In this document: positions 15,102 to 30,973 of the stretch, piece by piece
Layout of the letters: every line of letters starts with the position of its first letter
How positions within the stretch are numbered: the stretch's first letter is position 1
Assembly: GCF_000240225.1 (NCBI RefSeq)
Contig: NZ_AGUD01000051.1
Span: 1 to 47,091 of the forward strand
From: Patulibacter medicamentivorans
Lineage (GTDB): Bacteria > Actinomycetota > Thermoleophilia > Solirubrobacterales > Solirubrobacteraceae
Reading direction: 5' to 3'
Length of the DNA: 47,091 nt
Translations under genes and position numbers: made by a program
The notes under the pieces: generated by a model
What the model was told of the DNA's origin: nothing
What the model saw: the letters and a program-made list of their open reading frames with translations, nothing else
Databases searched by the model: none

Positions 15102-15865
15102 GCACCCCGCTGGCGATCCTGGGCATCTTCGGCGACGCGATCGACTTCATCTTCAACGCCCGCGAGGCGCGGACCGGCGGCGCCGAGGTCGGCGGCCTCG
15201 GCGAGTTCGCCTCGCTGACCGGCAAGCACCTGCTGGTGACCGTCGCGGCCGTCGGGCTGGCGTCGCTGGTCGCGCTGCCGCTCGGGCTGTACCTGGGCCA
15301 CAAGCGCCGCGGCGGCTTCCTCGCCGTGTCGGTCAGCAACGTCGGACGGGCGGTCCCGAGCCTGGTCCTGATCGCGCTCTTCATCGCCTTCCTCGGGGTC
15401 GGCTTCGCCAACGTGGCGCTGGCCCTGGCGCTGCTGGCGATCCCGCCGATCCTGACCAACGCCTACGTCGGGGTCACCCAGGTCGACCGCGACGTGATCG
15501 ACGCCGCCGTCGGCCAGGGCCTGACGGACGGCCAGGTCATGCGCCAGATCGAGCTGCCGCTGGCGCTGCCGCTGATCTTCGGCGGCCTGCGGACCTCGGT
15601 CGTCAACGTGATCGCGACGGCGACGATCGCCCCGATCGCCGGCGTCGTCACGCTCGGCGACCCGATCATCAGCCAGAGCGTCTACGGCGACGCCGGCAAG
15701 CTCGCGGCGGCGATCGTCGTCGCGCTGCTGGCCGTCGTCGCCGAGGTCGGCCTCGGCGCCGCCCAGCGCGCCGTCACCCCTGCGCCCCTGCGCGGCACGC
15801 CCGGGGCCACCCGGCGTGGGCGCTTCTTCGTCAAAACGGCCGGAAAGGGCCTCAGCACCTCATGA
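15098..15865 (+). CDS. Osmoprotectant ABC transporter permease (OpuCD-like)
   Basis: 255 residues; the ATG overlaps the preceding stop (ATGA). It has a hydrophobic N-terminus followed by five to six membrane helices. The EAA loop is DAAVGQGLTDGQVMRQIELPLALPLI, and the family motif GRAVPSLVLIALF is seen. The tail is basic and poorly conserved (RGTPGATRRGRFF). It pairs with the upstream permease as a heterodimer. Confidence 0.92.
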   Translation: MSTPLAILGIFGDAIDFIFNAREARTGGAEVGGLGEFASLTGKHLLVTVAAVGLASLVALPLGLYLGHKRRGGFLAVSVSNVGRAVPSLVLIALFIAFLGVGFANVALALALLAIPPILTNAYVGVTQVDRDVIDAAVGQGLTDGQVMRQIELPLALPLIFGGLRTSVVNVIATATIAPIAGVVTLGDPIISQSVYGDAGKLAAAIVVALLAVVAEVGLGAAQRAVTPAPLRGTPGATRRGRFFVKTAGKGLSTS

Positions 15866-16872
15866 AGCAACGACATCTGCGACTGCTCCTCGTCCTCGCG
15901 CTCGTGGCCCTCGCGGCCGTCGGGCTGACGGCGTGCGGCAGCGACGACAGCAAGAGCGACAGCACCTCCACGGCCGACGGCGCGTCGACCGAGACGACGA
16001 CCACCGCCAGCGACGCCGGCGGCGCGATCGTCAGCAACGCCGCCAACGGCAAGGTCACGCTGACGATCGGCTCGAAGAACTTCACCGAGCAGAAGGTGCT
16101 CGGCGAGATCTACGCCCAGGCGCTGCAGGCGGCCGGCTACACGGTCAAGAAGCAGCTCAACCTCGGCGACGAGCAGACGGCGCTGAAGACCCTCAAGCAG
16201 GGCGACATCGACGCCTACCCGGAGTACACCGGCACCGCGCTGCTGTCGTTCTTCGGCGTCAAGACCGACGCCCTGCCGCACGATCCGGCCGCGGCCTACG
16301 ACGAGGTCAAGGCCGACTTCGCCAAGCAGGACCTGGTCGCGCTGCCGCCGACCCCGTTCACCTCGTCCAACGAGGTCGCCGTCACGCAGGCGACCGCCGC
16401 CAAGTACGGGTTGAAGAACATCTCCGACCTGGCCAAGGTCGCCGACCAGCTGACGCTCTACGGCAGCCCCGAGTGCCGTCAGCGGCTCGACTGCCTGCTC
16501 GGCCTGCAGAAGACCTACGGGCTGAAGTTCAAGAAGTTCGTCCCGGTCGACCTGAGCCAGCGCAGCAAGGTGCTGAGCGGCGGCCAGGCCGACGTGTCGA
16601 TCGTCTTCACGACCGATCCGCAGAACAAGCGCGACAAGTTCGTGCTGCTGAAGGACGACAAGGGCATGTTCCCGCCGTACAACTCGACGCTGGTGGTCCG
16701 CAAGGCCAGCTTCGACAAGGCCGGCCCCGACCTGGCGACGACGATCGAGGCGGTCAACGCCAAGCTCGACGCGGCGGTCGTGCAGGAGCTGAACGCCCGC
16801 ATCGACCTCGACAAGGAGACGCCGGAGCAGGCCGCCGGCGAGTACCTGAAGCAGTTCGGCTTCGTCAAGTAG
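15862..16872 (+). CDS. Osmoprotectant-binding lipoprotein (OpuCC-like)
   Basis: 336 residues; ATG in a 4-base overlap with the permease. The signal peptide ends in lipobox LTAC, then a Ser/Thr/Asp-rich linker. The binding domain opens with LTIGSKNFTEQKVLGEIYAQAL and contains GDIDAYPEYTGTAL, hallmarks of the OpuAC/QAT substrate-binding family for quaternary amines. A CRQRLDCLLGLQ segment has two cysteines. As last gene of the operon it is followed by an 11-bp terminator stem at 16927. Confidence 0.93.
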   Translation: MKQRHLRLLLVLALVALAAVGLTACGSDDSKSDSTSTADGASTETTTTASDAGGAIVSNAANGKVTLTIGSKNFTEQKVLGEIYAQALQAAGYTVKKQLNLGDEQTALKTLKQGDIDAYPEYTGTALLSFFGVKTDALPHDPAAAYDEVKADFAKQDLVALPPTPFTSSNEVAVTQATAAKYGLKNISDLAKVADQLTLYGSPECRQRLDCLLGLQKTYGLKFKKFVPVDLSQRSKVLSGGQADVSIVFTTDPQNKRDKFVLLKDDKGMFPPYNSTLVVRKASFDKAGPDLATTIEAVNAKLDAAVVQELNARIDLDKETPEQAAGEYLKQFGFVK

Positions 16873-19123: not shown

Positions 19124-20206
19124 GTGACCTCGCTCGCCGACCGCCTGGCCGCCTCGACCCTGCAGCTCGTCGACTGCCCGTCGGAGTCGCGCCACGAGGA
19201 GCCGGCGATCGCGCTCGCCCAGGCGCTGCTGTTCGAGGCCGGCGTCGAGACCCACGACGCCCACGACACCTGCCTGACCGCCGGCACGACCGTCCGCGGC
19301 GAGCGGCCGCTGATCCTGCTCGCCGGCCACCTCGACACGGTCCCCGAGCAGGGCAACCGGCCCGGCCGGATCGCCGACGGCGTCGTCCACGGGCTCGGCG
19401 CCTGCGACATGAAGGGCGCCTGCGCGGTGATGCTCGAGCTGCTGCGCGACGGCGTCCACCAGCGGCCCGACCGGGCCTGCGACCTGGGCGTGGTGCTCTT
19501 CGGCCGCGAGGAGCTGCCGTTCCGCGAGACCGCCCTGACCCCGCTGCTGGAGCGCGAGCCGGCGCTGCGAGACGCCGACCTGGTGGTCGTGATGGAGCCG
19601 ACCGCGAACGGCGTCCAGGGCGGCTGCCTGGGGAACCTGAACGCGACCTGGAGCTTCCACGGGACCGCGGCCCACAGCGCCCGGCCGTGGCTCGGCTCCA
19701 ACGCGATCCACCGCGCCGCGGCGGGGATCGCGCACCTGGCCCAGGTGCCGGTCCACCGCCACGAGTTCCACGGGCTGACCTACGCCGAGTGCGTGTCGGT
19801 CACGCGGATCGCCGGCGGCGTCGCCGACAACGTCGTCCCCGACCGCGCCGAGGCCCACGTCAACTACCGCTACCCGCCCGGGATCCCGCCGGAGGCCGCC
19901 GAGTCGCAGCTGCGAGCCTGGTGCTCGGCGACCGACAGCGAGCTGACGATCGTCGGCAACGCCCCGTCGGGCGCGGTCACGATCGACGGGCCGCTGGCGC
20001 AGGCGCTGATCGCCCGCAGCGGTCGCGACGTGACCCCCAAGCAGGCGTGGACCCCGGTCGCCGAGTTCGGCCTGGCGGGCACCCCGGCAATCAACTACGG
20101 GCCGGGCGATCCGGCCTTCGCCCACAAGCGCGACGAGCAGGTCGCGGTGGCCGCGCTGGTCGAGAGCTACGAGACGCTGGCCGCGCTCGTCGCCACCGGC
20201 AGCTGA
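19124..20206 (+). CDS. dapE: Succinyl-diaminopimelate desuccinylase
   Basis: 360 residues from a GTG. An M20 zinc metallopeptidase: [12 protein letters not shown] supplies the first metal His and the catalytic Asp, GACDMKGA the bridging Asp, FGREELP the general-base Glu, and [15 protein letters not shown] a further ligand Glu. The dimerisation domain spans about 175-290, and the last ligand is the His of PAFAHKRDE. It releases succinate to give LL-diaminopimelate. dapC and dapD lie 2.4-5 kb downstream on the same strand, but two other genes intervene, so they are not strictly one operon. Confidence 0.92.
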
Positions 20207-20354: not shown

Positions 20355-21866
20355 ATGCCTGACGTCCACGATCCCGACGAGGCCGAGCGGCTGGAGGCCG
20401 AGCACCACGACGCCTACCACAGCCGCCGGGAGTTCCTGGAGCGGACGGCCGCCGCGGCCGGGCTCGCCGGGATGGGCCTCGCCCTGAGCCCCGACACGGT
20501 CCTCGCCGAGGCGACCCGGGCAACCACGCGCGCGCTGCCGAGCGCTCGCAACCTGCCGATCGACACCTTCGTCGTGCTGATGATGGAGAACCGGTCGTTC
20601 GACCACTACCTCGGCTGGCTGCCGGGCGCCGACGGCCGCCAGGCCGGCCTGACCTTCCGCGACAAGCAGGGCAAGGTCCACGCGACCCACCGCCTGGCCC
20701 CCGACTTCCAGGGGCTTGCGTACCTCGACCCGGACCACTCCTGGGAGGGCGGTCGCAAGCAGCTCGACGGCGGCCGCAACGACGGCTTCCTGCAGGCCGA
20801 CAGCGACGTCTTCTCGATCGGCTACTACACGAAGGCCGATCTGCCCTTCATCCCCCACGTCGCCCAGGCGTTCACGGCCTACGACCGCTTCTTCTGCTCG
20901 CTGCTGGCGTCGACGTACCCCAATCGGTACTACATGCACAGCGCCCAGTCCTACGGGCGCCGCGACAACGCGTTTCCGTTCCTGAAGGCCGACTCGCCGC
21001 TCGGCCTGCCCGACTCGACGATCTTCAACGCGCTGGCGCAGAAGGGCATCAGCAGCCGCTACTTCTACTCCGACATCCCGGTCGCGGCGCTCTGGGGCGT
21101 CCCCGGCCTGGCCCGCTCGGGAGCGATGCAGGAGTACTACGAGCGCTGCGCCGCGGGGACGCTGCCGGCGGTCTCGTTCGTCGACCCGTCGTTCAACGGC
21201 GAGGAGGCGGGGACCTCGGGCGACGAGCACCCGCACGGCGACGTCCGCGTCGGCCAGGCGTTCATGTCCGACGTCGTCCACGCCTTCCTGAAGTCGCCGC
21301 AGTACAAGCGCGGCGCGCTGTTCATCGTCTACGACGAGTGGGGCGGCTTCTTCGACCACGTCCGCCCGCCGCGCGTGCCCGACGTCCGCGCCAGCCGCGA
21401 CGTCGCCAGCGACTTCGGCCAGATGGGCTTCCGGATCCCGGCCGTCGCCGTCTCGCCCTGGGCCCGCCGCGGCCACGTCGACCACGGGGTCTACGGATTC
21501 GAGTCGATCCTGAAGCTGATCCGCTACCGCTACGGCCTTGCGCCGCTGACCCGCCGCGACCAGTTCGCCCGCAACATCGGGCTCTCGTTCGACTTCGCGC
21601 ACGCGCCGAAGCTCGAGCCGCCGCCGCTTCCGACGCCCCGCCGGATCATGCGCGGGGCTCCGATCGGCGCCCGGCCTGCCGCGACCGACCGCCAGGCCCG
21701 GCTGCGCGACGGCGGCAACGCGCCGCCGGCCCCGGAGCGCGCCAAGCCGCACGACCTGGCCGAGCTCTACACCTCGGGCTACCTCGACCGGCTCGGCTTC
21801 GACTACCGGCCGGCGACGCCGGCGCGGATGTTCAGCCATCCGTCCTCGATGGGGCTGCGGCCGTGA
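20355..21866 (+). CDS. Secreted phosphoesterase (phospholipase C/acid phosphatase family), Tat substrate
   Basis: 503 residues. The Tat signal [22 protein letters not shown] (about 16-37) begins inside an acidic N-terminus. Family PF04185 blocks: [17 protein letters not shown] with the metal-binding Glu-Asn, [15 protein letters not shown], and [16 protein letters not shown] near 320. This resembles bacterial phospholipase C and AcpA-type phosphatases, which fold with metals before export. It probably releases phosphate from lipids or nucleotides outside the cell. No TAnnnT or strong ribosome site is evident before the ATG. The 148-bp leader region has two same-orientation GTGACG motifs of unknown meaning. 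The stop overlaps the next gene (GTGA). Confidence 0.9.
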
Positions 21867-22635: not shown

Positions 22636-23925
22636 ATGGCCTCCGCCTCCTCGCGCAACCCGCTCCTGCGTCGCTCCGGCACCTATCCGTTCGCGCGCCT
22701 GACCCAGGCGCGGCGTCAGGCGGAGGCCGCCGCCGGGACCACCCTGCCGCTCGTCGACCTGGGGGCCGGCGAGCCGCGCGAGCCGACCCCGGAGCTCATC
22801 CGCCGGGCGCTGATCGAGGCGGTCGAGGCCGAGACCGTGTCGAGCTACCCCCTGGCCGAGGGACTGCCGGAGCTGCGCGCCGCCGTCGCCGGCTGGGTCG
22901 GGCGACGGTTCGGCACGACCCTCGACCCCGACCGGCACGTGCTGCCGACGCTCGGCTCGAAGGAGCTGGTCTTCAGCCTCCCCCAGGTGCTCGTCGACGT
23001 CGCCGGCGGCCGCGACCTGGTCGGCGTGCCGCAGCCCGGCTACCCCGTCTACGAGCGCGGCGCCCGCTTCGCCGGCGCCGAGGTCGTGGAGCTGCCGCTG
23101 CTCGCCGAGCACGGCTTCCTGCCCGATCTCGAGGCGATCAGCGACGAGCAGTGGTCGCGGCTGGCGCTGCTGTGGGTCAACTACCCGAACAACCCGACCG
23201 CCGCCGTGGCCACCCGCGAGTGGTACGCGCTGGCAGCCGCCCGCTGCCGTCGCCACGGCGTCGTCCTGGCCAGCGACGAGGCATACAGCGAGCTGTGGTT
23301 CGAGGGCGACGCTCCCGACTCGGCCGTGCAGATCGCGGCGTCCGGCGACGGCCTCGGCGGCGTGCTGGTCGTCAACACGCTCTCCAAGCGCTCGTCGATG
23401 CCCGGCTACCGCTCGGGCTTCGCGGCCGGCGACGCCGACCTGATCGCCGCGCTCAAGCGCTTCCGCCCGAGCGTCGGCGTCGCGCCCCAGCGGTTCGTCC
23501 AGCAGGCGGCGGTCGCGGCCTGGGGCGACGAGCAGCACGTGATCGAGGTCCGCGAGCGCTACCGGGCGAAGCTCGCCGCCCTCCGTCCCGGGCTCGAGGC
23601 GCTCGGCCTGCGCGACGCGGGCGGCCCCGGCTCGTTCTTCCGCTGGCTGGCGCTGCCGACCGGCTGGGAGCGCGCGTCGTGGGCGCAGGACGCCCTGGCC
23701 GATCCGGAGACCAGCGCCCTGGTCTCCGTCCTGACCGACGGCGACCCCGGGGACCGCGGCAGCGCGGCGTTCGCGGCCGGACTGCTGCGGGCCGGGCTCG
23801 TCGTCGCGCCGGGCGCGTTCTTCGGGCCCGCCGGCGAGGGCTACGTGCGGGTCGCGCTGGTCCCGACGCTCGAGGACTGCGCGATCGCGGCCGAGCGGCT
23901 GATCGCCCTCTCCGACGACATCTGA
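22636..23925 (+). CDS. dapC: Succinyldiaminopimelate transaminase (class I/II aminotransferase)
   Basis: 429 residues. A fold-type I PLP enzyme: [11 protein letters not shown] (substrate/PLP Asn), [12 protein letters not shown] (Asp and Tyr contacting the pyridine ring), [16 protein letters not shown] with the Schiff-base Lys, and the C-terminal Arg in [10 protein letters not shown]. Aminotransferases of this subgroup next to dapD and dapE in Actinobacteria are assigned as DapC, converting N-succinyl-2-amino-6-oxopimelate to N-succinyl-LL-DAP with glutamate. The symbol rests on context as much as on sequence. It starts with ATG and has no ribosome site. Confidence 0.85.
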
Positions 23926-23957: not shown

Positions 23958-24058
23958 CCGGTCGCCGAACGACCGGAACGTCGCAGCGGCCGCGGCGTCT
24001 CGGCGTGCGGCCACCGACGGCCGCCGCCTTTCGGTCGCTGAGCGACCGGAACGTCGCA
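23958..24058. repeat. Paired hairpin repeat in the dapC-dapD gap
   Basis: Two copies, 73 bp apart, of a 7-bp hairpin with five-base loop followed by AACGTCGCA. Copy 1 is CCGGTCG-CCGAA-CGACCGG (23958-23976) plus 23977-23985; copy 2 is TCGGTCG-CTGAG-CGACCGG (24031-24049) plus 24050-24058. The spacer is itself rich in GGCC/GCCG palindromes. The unit sits just before the dapD promoter. Confidence 0.65.
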
Positions 24059-24090
24059 CCCGCCACGCCGCCCGCGCGGCGCCGTTCTTC

Positions 24091-24096
24091 TAGGCT
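24091..24096 (+). promoter_or_regulatory. -10 element (TAGGCT) of dapD
   Basis: TAGGCT, seven bases, GTG at 24104; 33 bp after the second hairpin repeat. Confidence 0.5.
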
Positions 24097-24103
24097 CAGT
24101 CGC

Positions 24104-25117
24104 GTGAGCGATCAGCAGCAGACCGCAGGCGCCTGGGGCATCGGACTGGCCACCGTCGCCGAGGCCGACGGCCGGGTCCTGGACACCTTCTTCCCGTCGC
24201 CGGCGCTGGGGATCGACGCCGAGACCGTCGCCCGCGCCGGCCACGGCGGCGGGACCGGCAGCAGCGAGGTCTCCTTCGCCCGCGCCACCGAGACCGCCGG
24301 TGGCGCCGTGGCCGCCGCGATCGGCAGCGATCCGGGCCGTGGCGTGCGCACGATCGCCGTCGTGACCGTGATCGAGGACCTGGCGGCGGCGCCGGTCGAC
24401 GCCCACGACGTCTACCTGCGCCTGCACCTGCTGTCGCACCGGCTGGTCGCCCCCCACGGGCTCTCGCTCGACGGCCAGTTCGGGCTGCTCTCCAACGTCG
24501 TCTGGACCTCGCAGGGGCCGGTGCCGGTCGAGGGCTTCGAGCAGACCCGGCTGCGGCTGCGGGCCGAGGGCCGTCCGGTCGCCGTGACGTCGATCGACAA
24601 GTTCCCGCGGATGACCGACTACGTCGTGCCGAGCGGCGTCCGGATCGGCGACGCCGACCGCGTCCGGCTCGGGGCCCATCTGGCCGAGGGCACGACCGTC
24701 ATGCACGAGGGCTTCGTCAACTTCAACGCCGGCACGCTCGGCGCCTCGATGGTCGAGGGCCGGATCAGCGCCGGGGTCGTCGTCGGCGACGGGACCGACG
24801 TCGGCGGCGGCGCCTCGATCATGGGCACGCTCTCCGGCGGTGGCAAGGAGGTCATCTCGCTCGGCGAGAAGTGCCTGCTCGGCGCCAACGCCGGGATCGG
24901 GATCTCGCTCGGCGACGGCTGCGTGGTCGAGGCCGGCCTCTACGTCACCGGCGGCACCGTCGTCACGCTGCCCGACGGCCACGTCGTCAAGGCCCGCGAC
25001 CTGTCGGGCCAGGACGGCCTGCTCTTCCGCCGCAACAGCACGACCGGCGCCGTCGAGGCCCGGCCGCGCAGCGGCGACTGGGGCGGCCTCAACGCCAGCC
25101 TGCACGCCAACGACTGA
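24104..25117 (+). CDS. dapD: Tetrahydrodipicolinate N-succinyltransferase (actinobacterial type)
   Basis: 337 residues from GTG. An N-terminal domain (1-150) is followed by a left-handed beta-helix with hexapeptide repeats ([29 protein letters not shown] and onward). [27 protein letters not shown] is typical of the actinobacterial DapD subgroup. It transfers succinyl from succinyl-CoA to tetrahydrodipicolinate, the committed step of the succinylase DAP branch, acting as a trimer. A perfect hairpin follows 5 bp after the stop, before convergent dapF. Confidence 0.93.
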
Positions 25118-25155: not shown

Positions 25156-26031
25156 TCAGGCGGCCTCGGCCAGCGCCGCGAGCAGCTCGTCGCTGGCGTC
25201 GGCCACGTAGACCGGCACCGCCCAGCCGGTCAGATCGACATGCAGGTCCTCGGTCACGTCGACAACCAGCTCGCCGCCGTCCAGCTCGACGGTGACGCTC
25301 TCGCGGTCGCTCTGCGATCCGCCCCCGCCGCCCGCCAACACGTAGGCGACCGCGGCGCCCGACGCCCCCGTCCCGGAGGACATCGTCTCGCCGACCCCGC
25401 GCTCGAAGATCCGGGCGCGGATCCGCCCCGGCGCCAGCTCGCTGTACCACGAGACGTTGGTGCGGTTCGGGAACGACGCGTGGCGCTCGATCGCCGGGCC
25501 GATCGCCGGCAGGTCGAGCGCGTCCAGCTCCGCCCGGTCGGCGACCGCGATCGAGCACTGCGGGTTGCCGACCTTGACGTGCTGGAACGACCAGCGCAGG
25601 CCGTCGACCGCCTCGATCGTGCCGCGACCGTCGTCCGGACCCGACGGGAAGTCGTCGCTGACCAGGCGCGCCCGGCCCATGTCGACCCGGCAGGTCGTGT
25701 CGGAGAGGATCGTCGGGCGGATCTCGCCGGCGACCGTGGTGATCGAGAACTGGCTGCGATCGGTCCAGCCGCGGCGGACGAGGTACATGATCGCCTCGCG
25801 CGCGCCGTTGCCGGACAGCTCCGCCTCGGACCCGTCCGGGTTGAGGATCCGCAGGTCGGCGATCGATCCCGGATCGGTCGGCGGGGACAGCTCCAGGACG
25901 CCGTCGCCGCCGGGGCCGACGTGCGGGTCGCAGAGCATCCGGGCGCGGGCGGCGGTCAGCTCGAACGGCAGGCGCTCTCTCTCGACGATCAGGTAGTCGT
26001 TGCCGAGGGCCTGCCACTTCTCGAACCGCAT
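25156..26031 (-). CDS. dapF: Diaminopimelate epimerase homologue with both catalytic cysteines replaced by serine
   Basis: 291 residues, full length, no frame disruption. DapF landmarks are present: FEKWQALGNDYLIVE at the N-terminus, LNPDGSEAEL, VGNPQC and FERGVGETMSSGTGASG. In characterised DapF the two acid/base residues are cysteines in CGNGxR and ACGTG/SGA. Here the first reads LSGNGAR (Ser73) and the second SSGTGA (Ser219). The usual GNPH histidine is Gln158. All other substrate-contact motifs are kept. It should convert LL- to meso-DAP, the last step before cross-link formation, and no other epimerase is visible in the window. Either serine chemistry, a changed substrate or loss of activity is implied. 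TAGACT (26039-26044) lies 7 bases before the ATG. Confidence 0.88.
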   Translation of the reverse strand: MRFEKWQALGNDYLIVERERLPFELTAARARMLCDPHVGPGGDGVLELSPPTDPGSIADLRILNPDGSEAELSGNGAREAIMYLVRRGWTDRSQFSITTVAGEIRPTILSDTTCRVDMGRARLVSDDFPSGPDDGRGTIEAVDGLRWSFQHVKVGNPQCSIAVADRAELDALDLPAIGPAIERHASFPNRTNVSWYSELAPGRIRARIFERGVGETMSSGTGASGAAVAYVLAGGGGGSQSDRESVTVELDGGELVVDVTEDLHVDLTGWAVPVYVADASDELLAALAEAA

Positions 26032-26082: not shown

Positions 26083-27012
26083 TCAGCCCTCCAGCAGCGG
26101 CGCGACGATCCGCGCGGCGACCAGGTCGAGATCGGGGTCGTCGGTCAGGTCGACCACCTCGACCCCGGGCAGCTTGCGCATCCAGGTCAGCTGGCGCTTG
26201 ACGTAGCGGCGGGTGTCGCGTCGCATCCGGTCCTCGTCGCCGTCGAGCAGGGGCTCGAACCCGTGGGCCTTGCGCGCGGTCGCCGAGACCCCGGCCGCGA
26301 CCGCGGCACGGACCTCGTCGGCGGCCCCGGCCGCGAGCATCGCGTCGATCCGCAGGTCGATCCGGGCGCGCAGCTGGTCGCGGTCGCGGACCAGCCCGAC
26401 CAGTCGGGTCGGGTAACGGACGTCGTCGGTCCAGAGCCGGTTCGGCGCGTCGGGGTCGGGCTCGTGCAGCTCCCCCAGCTCGTGCAGCTCGAGCGTCCGC
26501 ACCAACCGCGAGCGGTCGGCGGGGGCGATCCGCGCGGCCGCCCACGGCGCGACCGCGGCCAGGCGAGCGTGCAGCGCCCGCGGTCCGTCGGCGGCCAGCT
26601 CGGCCTCGAGCCGGGCGCGGATCTCGGGCGGGGCCGGCGGTCGCAGCGCGAGCTCGGTCAGCGCCGCCCGCAGGTAGAGCCCGGTGCCGCCGACCACCAC
26701 CGGCGTCCGCCCGGCCGCCAGGGCGCGGTCGATCTCCTCGTGCGCCATCCCCGCGAAGCGCCCGGCGGAGCACGTCTCCGAGATCGGCAGCACGCTCACC
26801 AGCCGGTGCTCCAGCTCGTCCTGGTCGAGGGCGTCGCGGGCCCCGGTCAGCGTCTCGATCCCGCGGTAGACCTGCATCGCATCGGCCGAGATCGCCAGCG
26901 GATCGTGTCCGGCGGCCCGCAGCGCGCGGCCGACCGCGACCGCGACGGCCGTCTTGCCGACCGCCGTCGGGCCGAACAGCGCGACGATCCGGGGACGAAC
27001 GGGGGCCTCCAT
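26083..27012 (-). CDS. miaA: tRNA dimethylallyltransferase
   Basis: 309 residues. P-loop GPTAVGKT (14-21), then SADAMQVYRG (the DxxQxYxx substrate motif), VVVGGTGLYLRA, and a C-terminal RRYVKRQLTWMRK that contacts tRNA. It adds dimethylallyl to A37 of tRNAs reading UNN codons; MiaB, 3 kb away on the same strand, then methylthiolates it. The start is only 23 bp from the divergent FIST gene start, so the two promoters must overlap. Confidence 0.95.
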   Translation of the reverse strand: MEAPVRPRIVALFGPTAVGKTAVAVAVGRALRAAGHDPLAISADAMQVYRGIETLTGARDALDQDELEHRLVSVLPISETCSAGRFAGMAHEEIDRALAAGRTPVVVGGTGLYLRAALTELALRPPAPPEIRARLEAELAADGPRALHARLAAVAPWAAARIAPADRSRLVRTLELHELGELHEPDPDAPNRLWTDDVRYPTRLVGLVRDRDQLRARIDLRIDAMLAAGAADEVRAAVAAGVSATARKAHGFEPLLDGDEDRMRRDTRRYVKRQLTWMRKLPGVEVVDLTDDPDLDLVAARIVAPLLEG

Positions 27013-27022
27013 CGACCGCGAG

Positions 27023-27028
27023 TATGGT
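27023..27028 (+). promoter_or_regulatory. -10 element (TATGGT) of the FIST gene
   Basis: TATGGT, seven bases, ATG at 27036. It lies within the 23-bp gap to the divergent miaA start. Confidence 0.5.
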
Positions 27029-27035
27029 GAATCGG

Positions 27036-28202
27036 ATGCCCGTCGTCGTCGCCACCGGCTACTCGTCCGCGGTCGATCCCGAGACCGGGGTCGCGCTCGC
27101 GGCCCGCCAGGCGCAGGTCGGTCTCGGCGGCGCGAGCTGCGATCTGGCGATCGTCTTCGTCTCCGGCGACCACGTGACGGAGGTCGACGCCGTGATGGCG
27201 ACGATCCACGAGGTCCTCGCCCCGGACGAGCTGGTCGGCTGCTCGAGCGGCGGGCTGATCGCCGGCGGCCAGGAGCACGAGCACGGCACCGGAGTCGCGA
27301 TCTGGGCGATCTCCGTCGACGAGGGCCGCGCCGACGTCTTCGAGCTGCGGACCCGGCCGGTCGAGGACGGCCTGGCGCTGCTGGGGATGCCCGATCCGGA
27401 CGCCGGCACCAGCTCGGCGATCATCCTGCTCGCCGACGCCTCGCGGCTGCCGCTCGAGGGGACCCTGCGGGCCTTCGAGGAGCACCTGCCCGGCGTGCCG
27501 CTGATCGGCGGGGTGCCGTCGATGGTCCCGCCCGACGGCCGCCCGCTGCTGCACGACCGCGGCGCGACCGACGCGGCCGCGATCGGGATCCGCTTCTCCG
27601 GGGTCGAGGTGCTGCCGTGCGTGTCGCAGGGCGCGCGTCCGATCGGCCCGGAGCTGGCGGTGACCGCCGGCGAGGGCGGCGTGATCCAGGAGCTGGCCGG
27701 GCGTCCGGCGATCGAGGCCCTGCGCGAGACGGTCGACGGCCTCGGCGCCGAGGACCAGGCGCGGATCCGCCACGGGCTGCTGCTCGGCCTGGTCGTGGGA
27801 CCCGGGCGACCGGAGTACGGTGCCGGCGACTTCGTCGTCCGCGGGCTCGCCGGCGCCGATCCGGAGGCAGGCGCGGTCGTGGTCGGCGCCCCGGTCGAGG
27901 TCGGCCAGATCGCCCAGCTGCACGTCCGCGACCCCGAGACGGCGACCCGCGACCTGGAGGACGCCCTGCGCCTGCGCCGCGCCGCGGCCGGCTCCGGTCA
28001 GGTCGCCGGCGCGCTCGCCTTCACCTGCAACGGCCGCGGTCACGACATGTTCGGCCACGACCACCACGACGCCGACGCGATCCAGCGCGAGCTCGGCCCG
28101 CTGCCGCTCGCCGGGATGTTCTCCGCCGGCGAGATCGGCCCGGTCGGCGGCCGCCCGTTCGTGCACGGCTTCACGGCGACCGTCGCGGTCTTCCTCGCCT
28201 AG
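27036..28202 (+). CDS. FIST (N and C) domain sensory protein
   Basis: 388 residues; ATG at 27036 is chosen because the upstream ATG at 27024 lies inside the TATGGT box. The FIST_N domain covers about 30-215 (VGCSSGGLIAGG, AIILLADASRLPLEG, LIGGVPSMVPPDG). FIST_C covers about 225-370 and ends GQVAGALAFTCNGRGHDMFGHDHHDA and LAGMFSAGEIGPVGG. FIST proteins are proposed small-ligand (amino acid) sensors and are often fused to signalling domains. Here the two domains stand alone with no kinase or cyclase nearby, so its output is unknown. The HDHHD cluster might bind metal. Confidence 0.88.
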   Translation: MPVVVATGYSSAVDPETGVALAARQAQVGLGGASCDLAIVFVSGDHVTEVDAVMATIHEVLAPDELVGCSSGGLIAGGQEHEHGTGVAIWAISVDEGRADVFELRTRPVEDGLALLGMPDPDAGTSSAIILLADASRLPLEGTLRAFEEHLPGVPLIGGVPSMVPPDGRPLLHDRGATDAAAIGIRFSGVEVLPCVSQGARPIGPELAVTAGEGGVIQELAGRPAIEALRETVDGLGAEDQARIRHGLLLGLVVGPGRPEYGAGDFVVRGLAGADPEAGAVVVGAPVEVGQIAQLHVRDPETATRDLEDALRLRRAAAGSGQVAGALAFTCNGRGHDMFGHDHHDADAIQRELGPLPLAGMFSAGEIGPVGGRPFVHGFTATVAVFLA

Positions 28203-29148: not shown

Positions 29149-29164
29149 CGCCGGTCAGCCGGCG
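29149..29164. terminator. SDR/miaB convergent hairpin
   Basis: CGCCGG-TCAG-CCGGCG, with the miaB stop codon in the loop. Confidence 0.45.
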
Positions 29165-30561
29165 AGCGTCGCCAGCAGCGACATCTCGCCGCTGAGCGTC
29201 TGCGACGTGGCGCCGGTGATCTGGACCGGGACGGTCTCCCCCGGCTGCCCGAAGCCGACGAAGTTGACGACCTTGTTGTGGCTGGTGCGGCCGCGCAGCT
29301 TGTCGGGGTCGGTCCGCGACTCGCCCTCGATCAGCACCTCGAGGGTCCGGCCGACGAACCGCTGGGTCCGCTCGCGGGCGTGGTGCTGGACCCGCTCGAC
29401 CAGCCGCTCCATCCGCTCGACCTTGACCGGATGCGGCACGAAGTCGTCGACCAACTCGGCCGCCTCGGTCCCCCGGCGCGGCGAGAAGACGAAGGTGAAG
29501 GCGCCATCGAACGCGACCGCGTCGACGACCTCGAGCGTCTCCTCGAACTCCGCCTCGGTCTCGCCCGGGAAGCCGACGATGATGTCGGTCGTGATCGCGA
29601 TGTCCGGGCACTGCTCGCGGATCATCGCCACCCGGTCGAGGTAGCGCTGCTTGTCGTACGTGCGGCGCATCCGCTTGAGGATCCGGCTGGATCCGGCCTG
29701 CAGCGGCAGGTGGATGTGCTGGCAGACCTCGGGCAGCGCGGCGTGGACCGCGACGACGTCCTCGCGGATGTCCTTCGGATGCGGTGAGGTGTAGCGGATC
29801 CGCTCGATGCCGTCGACGGCCGCGACCGCGGTCAGCAGCTCGGCGAAGGTCCGCGGACGGGTGCCGGCGGTCGGGCGCTTGGCCGCCTCGCTGAAGGCCA
29901 GCAGCGCCTCGGGCAGCGGCTCGGTCGTGCGCAGGTCGCGGCCGTAGGCGTTGACGTTCTGCCCCAGCAGCGTGACCTCGCGAACGCCGTCGGCGGCGAG
30001 CGCGCGGACCTCGTCGAGCAGCTGCTCGAACGGCCGCGACGACTCGCGCCCGCGGGTCGAGGGCACGATGCAGTAGGAGCACTTGAGGTTGCAGCCGACG
30101 GCGATCTGGACCCACGCCTGGAAGCTGCGATCGCGCTTGGTCGGCAGGTGGGCGGGGAAGCCCTCGAACTCGAAGTAGCCCTGGGCCGACAGCGAGTCGG
30201 CCGTCAGGAACTCGGCGAGCTTGTTGATCTGGCCCGGCCCGAAGGCGACGTCGACGAACGGGAAGCGCGCGAAGACCTCGTCCTTGACCGACTGCGCCCA
30301 GCAGCCCCCGACGCCGACGACGACGCCGGGCCGCTCCTTCTTCATCCGCTTCGCGTGCCCCAGGTGGGCGAGGAACCGCGAGTCGGCCGACTCGCGGATC
30401 GAGCAGGTGTTGAAGAGGATCAGATCGGCGTCCTCGGCCGTCTCGGCGGCCCCGTAGCCCAGCGATTCGAGCATCCCGCGCATCCGCTCGGAGTCGTGCT
30501 CGTTCATCTGGCACCCGAAGGTGGTGACGTGGTAGCGCTTCGGCGTATCGGAGGAGGCCAT
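29155..30561 (-). CDS. miaB: tRNA-2-methylthio-N6-dimethylallyladenosine synthase
   Basis: 468 residues from ATG at 30561; weaker TTG/GTG codons at 30573 and 30570 would add four or three. The N-terminal UPF0004 domain holds auxiliary-cluster cysteines 17, 53 and 87 (FGCQMNEHDS, NTCSIRE, GGCWAQ). The radical-SAM cluster is CNLKCSYC (157, 161, 164). A C-terminal TRAM domain (about 400-465) binds tRNA. It adds methylthio to i6A37. The linker EAAKRPTAGTRPRTF (about 235) is an insertion relative to typical MiaB. TACCCT lies 11 bases upstream of the ATG (30573-30578). Confidence 0.95.
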   Translation of the reverse strand: MASSDTPKRYHVTTFGCQMNEHDSERMRGMLESLGYGAAETAEDADLILFNTCSIRESADSRFLAHLGHAKRMKKERPGVVVGVGGCWAQSVKDEVFARFPFVDVAFGPGQINKLAEFLTADSLSAQGYFEFEGFPAHLPTKRDRSFQAWVQIAVGCNLKCSYCIVPSTRGRESSRPFEQLLDEVRALAADGVREVTLLGQNVNAYGRDLRTTEPLPEALLAFSEAAKRPTAGTRPRTFAELLTAVAAVDGIERIRYTSPHPKDIREDVVAVHAALPEVCQHIHLPLQAGSSRILKRMRRTYDKQRYLDRVAMIREQCPDIAITTDIIVGFPGETEAEFEETLEVVDAVAFDGAFTFVFSPRRGTEAAELVDDFVPHPVKVERMERLVERVQHHARERTQRFVGRTLEVLIEGESRTDPDKLRGRTSHNKVVNFVGFGQPGETVPVQITGATSQTLSGEMSLLATLAG

Positions 30562-30572
30562 GTCGGACACCA

Positions 30573-30578
30573 AGGGTA
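30573..30578 (-). promoter_or_regulatory. -10 element (TACCCT) of miaB
   Basis: TACCCT on the minus strand, 11 bases before the ATG at 30561. Confidence 0.4.
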
Positions 30579-30619: not shown

Positions 30620-30973
30620 ATGAGCCGGATCTTCACGACCAGCTTCGCCTCGGTCTATCCCCTCTACCTGGCGAAGGTGGAGCGGAAGGGTCGCTCGAAG
30701 GCCGAGCTGGATCAGGTGATCCTGTGGCTGACCGGCTTCGACGAGGCCGCGTTGCACCGCCACCTCGCGGCCGGCACGACGTTCGAGGACCTCTTCGCCG
30801 ACGCGCGCCTCAACCCGGGCGCCTCGTCGATCACCGGCGTGGTGTGCGGAGTCCGCGTCGAGGACGTCGACGATCCGCTGATGCAGAAGATCCGCTACCT
30901 GGACAAGCTGGTCGACGAGCTCGCCAAGGGAAAGGCGATGGAGAAGATCCTGCGCGGAGCGCCGCAGGGCTAG
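30620..30973 (+). CDS. DUF2200 family protein
   Basis: 117 residues. The opening [33 protein letters not shown] and the later [41 protein letters not shown] match the small bacterial DUF2200 family over its whole length. A soluble, probably all-helical protein of unknown function. It starts 58 bp from divergent miaB. Confidence 0.85.

Follow-up and report, generated by a model that had tools for sequence, protein, structure and literature searches.

We describe a homologue of the diaminopimelate (DAP) epimerase DapF that carries serine at both positions of the catalytic cysteine pair. It is encoded in a 47,091-nucleotide stretch of the Patulibacter medicamentivorans genome (assembly GCF_000240225.1, contig NZ_AGUD01000051.1; hereafter the window, meaning the whole stretch analysed). 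Known DapF uses a thiolate and thiol pair and is a textbook case of a thiolate base acting on a very weakly acidic proton. Comparison of sequences leads us to propose, with a probability of roughly 0.58, that the window protein is the working and only known LL-to-meso-DAP epimerase of the Solirubrobacterales, with the serines in the catalytic role. The proposal follows from four properties of the gene and its product: it is the positional orthologue of dapF, it is single copy in the genomes checked, it is modelled with the DapF fold, and it keeps the residues that hold DAP. The gene and its relevant codons are as follows.

25156..26031, minus strand: dapF homologue, 291 amino acids, frame without internal stop, the sole DapF-domain gene found in its own genome
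25813..25815, minus strand: Ser73, codon TCC, at the first catalytic cysteine position of DapF, just ahead of model helix 74-86
25558..25560, minus strand: Gln158, codon CAG, giving GNPQ where GNPH is expected
25399..25404, minus strand: Glu210-Arg211 of the ERG motif, present throughout the 216 sequences compared
25375..25377, minus strand: Ser219, codon TCC, at the second catalytic cysteine position of DapF, just ahead of model helix 220-232

Translation and a whole-protein match of 174.2 bits to the NCBIfam DapF equivalog TIGR00652 (cut-off 114.65) bear out what the initial annotation had read, namely serine, glutamine and serine for Cys/His/Cys in an intact DapF frame. The three residues lie in the motifs LSGNGAR, GNPQ and SSGTGA. 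PF01678 (DAP_epimerase) is the sole Pfam match at E values up to 1, a search in which the proline racemase family PF05544 gave no match. The structure model, predicted with confidence, has the DapF fold with its two alike domains, and serine takes the place of cysteine at the N-terminus of each helix of the pair that flanks the substrate alpha carbon. The protein thus shares with DapF (TIGR00652, PF01678) a whole-length match over cut-off, the fold, the domain pair, the DAP-binding residues and a place behind miaA, but differs in having serine for both catalytic cysteines and GNPQ for GNPH. Three solved DapF structures aligned to it have Cys/His/Cys at positions 73, 158 and 219; neither the two catalytic cysteines nor the GNPH motif by which DapF is recognised is present in the window protein. 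It also falls outside the PROSITE signature of DapF, whose pattern, as quoted in the available portion of PMC8225329, requires cysteine.

The DAP-binding residues N11, N64, N75, N156, N192, E210 and R211 are retained. Across the Thermoleophilia set N64, N75, N156, N192 and R211 are found in 80 of 80 sequences, and position 221 is threonine in 67 and serine in 13. A change of substrate, one option of the initial annotation, might mean a different diamino acid or precursor-bound DAP, for instance, and we regard it as highly improbable. The residues in contact with DAP are kept, the match to NF038284, the model of the bifunctional DapF/glutamate racemase, reaches 46.8 bits against a cut-off of 350, DAP-pathway genes lie nearby, and meso-DAP walls are reported for the order. 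The further statement that every other DapF landmark is conserved holds for the larger part: of 65 positions that are at least 90% fixed in 22 Cys/His/Cys proteins of the Thermoleophilia, 51 remain at least 90% conserved in the Solirubrobacterales and 14 do not. Besides positions 73, 158 and 219, the order-specific changes among these 14 include G8A, E194S, V208I, W209F, A218S and A225G.

The best matches to the window protein were gathered as 112 loci, comprising the best 80 of 319, the best 30 of a second collection and two from a search of its own genome. Loci L001-L003 represent the window gene itself, and several genomes of L004-L032 recur from L033 onward, while L033-L112 are 80 separately named contigs that include Patulibacter, Conexibacter, Paraconexibacter, Svornostia and Solirubrobacter. 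Many of the 80 are drafts, and their membership in the order was judged by their DapF protein. Ser/Gln/Ser is found in all 112 loci, down to about 55% identity to the window protein, which answers the question whether the serine pair is lineage-wide: it is order-wide, and swaps between cysteine and serine, single or double, are found again and again across the phylum. The assembly behind the window has 353 contigs, a point that would favour a sequencing, assembly or annotation artefact, but the three residues are identical in all 112 loci from many assemblies, single-contig genomes included. The artefact, and with it the base-call error once considered for the serine codons, is refuted, and we leave it practically no weight. 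Among the 80 contigs the Ser73 codon is TCN in 79 and AGY in one, and the Ser219 codon is TCN in 70 and AGY in ten. A switch between TCN and AGY takes two steps, possibly by way of cysteine or threonine, so serine would have been held or regained. Two loci carry titles that look wrong, L044 (Bifidobacterium breve) and L095 (Chlamydiae bacterium); both encode a typical Solirubrobacterales DapF, 71% and 59% identical.

Copy number and alternative enzymes were examined in 18 chosen genomes of the order, ten of them single-contig and one the window's own (G000; 93% complete, 353 contigs). PF01678 gave exactly two domain matches, both within one gene, in each of the 18, the window genome included. 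A second, Cys/Cys DapF was accordingly rejected for these 18. TIGR00652 found a match in 192 of 201 order genomes, and in 111 of the 112 with completeness of 90% or more and contamination of 5% or less. Seven of the 201 have two matches (G307, G332, G361, G363, G374, G382 and G395). In G395, a 75% complete draft, one copy (C359) is Ser/Gln/Ser and the other (C79) is Cys/His/Cys, 34% identical and probably a stray contig or contamination; in G361 the one copy read is Ser/Gln/Ser. The other second matches may be split genes. On the tree the Cys/His/Cys copy of G395 (L169, G395:C79:300-3300) forms a long branch beside f12 (f-numbers are family labels), far from the DapF of the order itself. Ddh gave no match over cut-off in the same 18 genomes, and its five weak matches (21-24 bits, in three genomes) lie within the first 136 of 324 model positions; a Ddh bypass was rejected. 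Proline-racemase family proteins over cut-off occur in four of the 18 and in none of the other 14, among them G000, G081 and Conexibacter woesei (G196), so this family was rejected as a stand-in epimerase.

The same searches bear on the reading that epimerase activity was lost, the protein being kept for another task such as DAP binding or complex formation, and that meso-DAP comes from an unrelated enzyme so far unrecognised. Relatives engineered from Cys to Ser have almost no activity left, genomes of f26 and f40 hold diverged Ser/Ser paralogues beside a Cys-bearing copy, and proline-racemase family proteins do exist in four of the 18 genomes, all of which would suit such a loss. Set against this are the lack of a second DapF-domain gene and of Ddh, the 14 of 18 genomes with no proline-racemase match over cut-off, and catalytic positions that are invariant as serine down to 55% identity, and we judge the loss quite improbable. 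The related suggestion of a non-catalytic paralogue with the real DapF elsewhere falls with the single DapF-domain gene in 18 of 18 genomes and with the place of dapF, which lies behind miaA as the Cys/Cys gene does.

The window gene is the positional orthologue of the Cys/Cys dapF. Its relevant neighbours are the following.

26083..27012, minus strand: miaA, 151.6 bits against a cut-off of 148.65, upstream of dapF on the same strand
29155..30573, minus strand: miaB, upstream of miaA on the same strand
24005..25117, plus strand: dapD, DapD_actino 476 bits, over cut-off
22636..23925, plus strand: dapC-like aminotransferase, best match TIGR03537 with 346 bits, under the cut-off of 453.6
19124..20206, plus strand: dapE of the gram-positive type, 335 bits, over cut-off

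A same-strand miaA lies upstream of dapF in all 16 Solirubrobacterales loci tested, and miaB does too in 12. The order miaB-miaA-dapF is also found in the Ser/His/Ser loci L172 and L173 of f11 and in the Cys/Cys loci L174 and L175, and the Cys/Cys locus L176 has miaA-dapF. The gene after dapF matches NF006756, a model of an LL-DAP aminotransferase subfamily, in L040 and L050 (the only two Solirubrobacterales loci tested for it), L172 (f11) and L176 (Cys/Cys), with 526-584 bits against a cut-off of 507; against the equivalog TIGR03540 the same genes score 503-570, short of its cut-off of 593.25. In the window dapD adjoins dapF at the place of this gene. As to the reported presence of dapC, dapD and dapE nearby, dapD and dapE were recovered over cut-off, but the dapC-like gene stays below that of TIGR03537.

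The wall chemistry of the order calls for the product of such an enzyme. The available text of PMC3035278 gives meso-DAP as the diamino acid diagnostic of the Solirubrobacterales, all members included, and that of PMC10722151 reports it in a new Solirubrobacter species, which contradicts, for the order and for one Solirubrobacter species, the idea of an LL-DAP wall. C. woesei, with a meso-DAP wall according to the published account as far as available, has LysA and a Ser/Gln/Ser DapF (L010) as the product of its sole PF01678 gene.

Exchange of the catalytic residues extends beyond the order. In an alignment of 81 rows from the Thermoleophilia, which includes the G395 stray, Ser/Gln/Ser was found in 34 of 34 Solirubrobacterales, Ser/His/Ser in 19 of 19 sequences of f7 and five of five of f11, and Cys/His/Cys in the stray and in all 22 of f5, f6, f8, f9, f10 and f12; Glu210 is present in all 81. 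Seven further class sequences (L200-L206) comprise six Cys/His/Cys and one Ser/His/Cys (G012, f9), bringing these six families to 28 of 29. When the three columns are left out of the class alignment, each family forms a clade in the tree and the serine state needs three changes. Neither a single Ser/Ser origin in the Thermoleophilia (p = 0.234, approximately unbiased test) nor a grouping of f11 with the Solirubrobacterales (p = 0.437) was rejected, so three origins are not claimed.

For the phylum 159 genomes were searched and matches were found in 147, of which 133 lie outside the class; 136 sequences were read from 130 of these (G445, G450 and G541 are left out). At positions 73/219 they are Cys/Cys in 89, Cys/Ser in 20, Ser/Cys in 17 and Ser/Ser in ten, and several families are uniform (f23 Cys/Ser 13 of 13, f33 Ser/Cys seven of seven, f50 Cys/Ser four of four). 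Six of the ten Ser/Ser proteins are second, diverged copies beside a Cys-bearing copy (five in f26, one in f40), and four are sole matches (one in f46, three in f49). The second copies (L214, L258, L259, L260, L278 and L299) are Ser/His/Ser, several with NPDAS, GTPH or GSPH, SATG or SAAG. An in-frame TGA in two f49 genes looks like an ordinary stop, both catalytic serines lying upstream of it, and was set aside. When the class set without L169 and the phylum set are joined to 216 sequences (L200-L206 were read apart), only cysteine or serine is found at both sites. Gln158 occurs, among the sequences read, only in the Solirubrobacterales; histidine stands there in 136 of 136 outside the class. 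A quick phylum tree of 194 rows leaves 61 of its 191 forks open; L169 was omitted from it and the Solirubrobacterales rows were thinned by two thirds. It needs 11 changes at site 73 and seven at site 219, and codon classes differ between groups. Since the exchange of cysteine and serine is recurrent, and exclusive in the sample, we infer a working equivalence in vivo and not decay.

Glutamate racemase, another two-cysteine racemase, was read for comparison. Eight of ten aligned sequences are still Cys/Cys (two weak second matches are left out), and a general loss of thiols in two-cysteine racemases was rejected. The other two, L189 (G017) and L190 (C. woesei G196), are Cys/Ser, with LGSTHYP for LGCTHYP, a similar swap. 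TIGR00067 gave no match in five of 15 genomes (G000, G081, G139, G103 and G007), and G081 is a single-contig genome of the window's genus.

How a serine pair might do the work can be sketched. One serine side chain would take the alpha proton, either as alkoxide or as the relay for a proton coming from a neighbour or from a trapped water, and the other would return a proton from the opposite face. Helix dipoles and backbone amides, which lower the thiol pKa in the cysteine enzymes, may help, and the loss of the GNPH histidine together with the order-specific changes around Ser73 and Ser219 can be read as compensation. The swap would then be one case of the recurrent Cys-Ser exchange in actinobacterial DapF. 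Its selection could perhaps come from disulfide shutdown of the two catalytic cysteines, which could not occur once either residue is serine, a conjecture that covers the Cys/Ser and Ser/Cys forms too; the accessible part of PMC5296763 describes such an inactivating disulfide in Corynebacterium glutamicum DapF. Among the options of the initial annotation a putative serine-based epimerase is the best fit to the sequences.

Several points weigh against a working serine epimerase. The hydroxyl group is much less acidic than the thiol. In PddB the change of either cysteine to serine leaves <0.1% activity, and its authors note the like for Mycobacterium tuberculosis DapF (PMC8225329, text available in part); HisR C67S and C209S have greatly reduced activity in the excerpt of PMC11602996, and Cys-to-Ala changes in C. 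glutamicum DapF cost almost all activity in that of PMC5296763. Natural serine precedents either keep one cysteine or, as a Ser/Thr enzyme, are dehydratases. As the f26 and f40 paralogues indicate, a Ser/Ser pair can also be the sign of a copy no longer doing this work, and an unrelated epimerase may make meso-DAP. LysA, which acts on meso-DAP, gave no match in the window genome, nor in G222, G282 and G284 of the order. It was found in all five other genomes of the window's genus; given 93% completeness and 353 contigs, its lack in G000 is probably an assembly gap.

Near-inactivity of the engineered mutants means that a serine pair must be helped, or that another group moves the proton. The latter would still be a DAP epimerase, its serines holding water, hydroxide or substrate, and the candidates are the invariant Glu210, the order-specific Glu79 or Ser218, or the substrate itself. 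In its favour, serine is ill suited as a base, none of the 216 sequences lacks Glu210, and order-specific changes adjoin both sites; in the accessible text of PMC12039745, Haemophilus influenzae DapF with D,L-aziDAP has a water near Glu208, and the L,L-aziDAP complex is without it. However, alanine or glycine would sometimes be expected if space or water sufficed, and only cysteine or serine is found at both sites; Glu210, being in every DapF compared, is nothing new. We consider this alternative unlikely and prefer serines in the catalytic role.

We found no description of natural serine forms of DapF in the open literature, subscription journals being mostly outside the search. The Asp/Glu racemases are a different protein family from DapF. 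Among them EcL-DER and MMP0739 resemble the window protein in natural loss of a catalytic cysteine (one of two, to threonine) and in cofactor independence, but keep the other cysteine and have a one-way reaction, reported or predicted, in the available part of PMC8142540. The serine members of the proline racemase superfamily share the fold class and a natural serine at the first catalytic position, but keep one cysteine (or are Ser/Thr dehydratases), act on hydroxyproline and are not DapF, as far as the excerpt of PMC4113996 goes. There a natural-serine 4HypE that keeps a cysteine still epimerises, with Ser93 and Cys236 in B9JQV3 according to a figure legend; the running text instead names B9K4G4 and Cys255 for the Ser93 4HypE. 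The t3HypD B9K4G4 (Ser90/Thr256) dehydrates in the same excerpt. The H. influenzae DapF laboratory mutants C73S (2q9h) and C217S (2q9j) replace one cysteine each by design, whereas the window protein has both replaced naturally and in a sole gene.

The other genes identified around dapF in the window are listed here.

27024-28202, plus strand: protein with FIST N and FIST C domains, oriented divergently to miaA, with a match close to miaA at six of 16 Solirubrobacterales loci tested
20355-21866, plus strand: phosphoesterase family protein (PF04185) between dapE and dapC, weakly like phosphocholine-specific phospholipase C (162 bits, cut-off 580)
30620-30973, plus strand: DUF2200 protein
15862-16872, plus strand: OpuAC-type substrate-binding protein of a glycine betaine transport system

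From the sequences, and just short of even odds, we propose that DapF of this order is a natural two-serine, cofactor-free epimerase without a thiol, that cysteine and serine have been exchanged many times in the Actinomycetota, and that the thiol pair is optional for the fold. DapF is a drug target, and covalent inhibitors attack its two cysteines; cysteine-directed inhibitors would miss these bacteria if the proposal is true. If entire lineages rely on serine pairs, a much weaker acid must suffice for the reaction, and the established mechanism with its two cysteines may turn out not to be universal. The sister families offer a ready series for the pKa problem, from Cys/Cys through Cys/Ser and Ser/Cys to Ser/Ser with histidine and Ser/Ser with glutamine. 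Should the proteins be inactive instead, common soil bacteria would possess an unknown route to meso-DAP.
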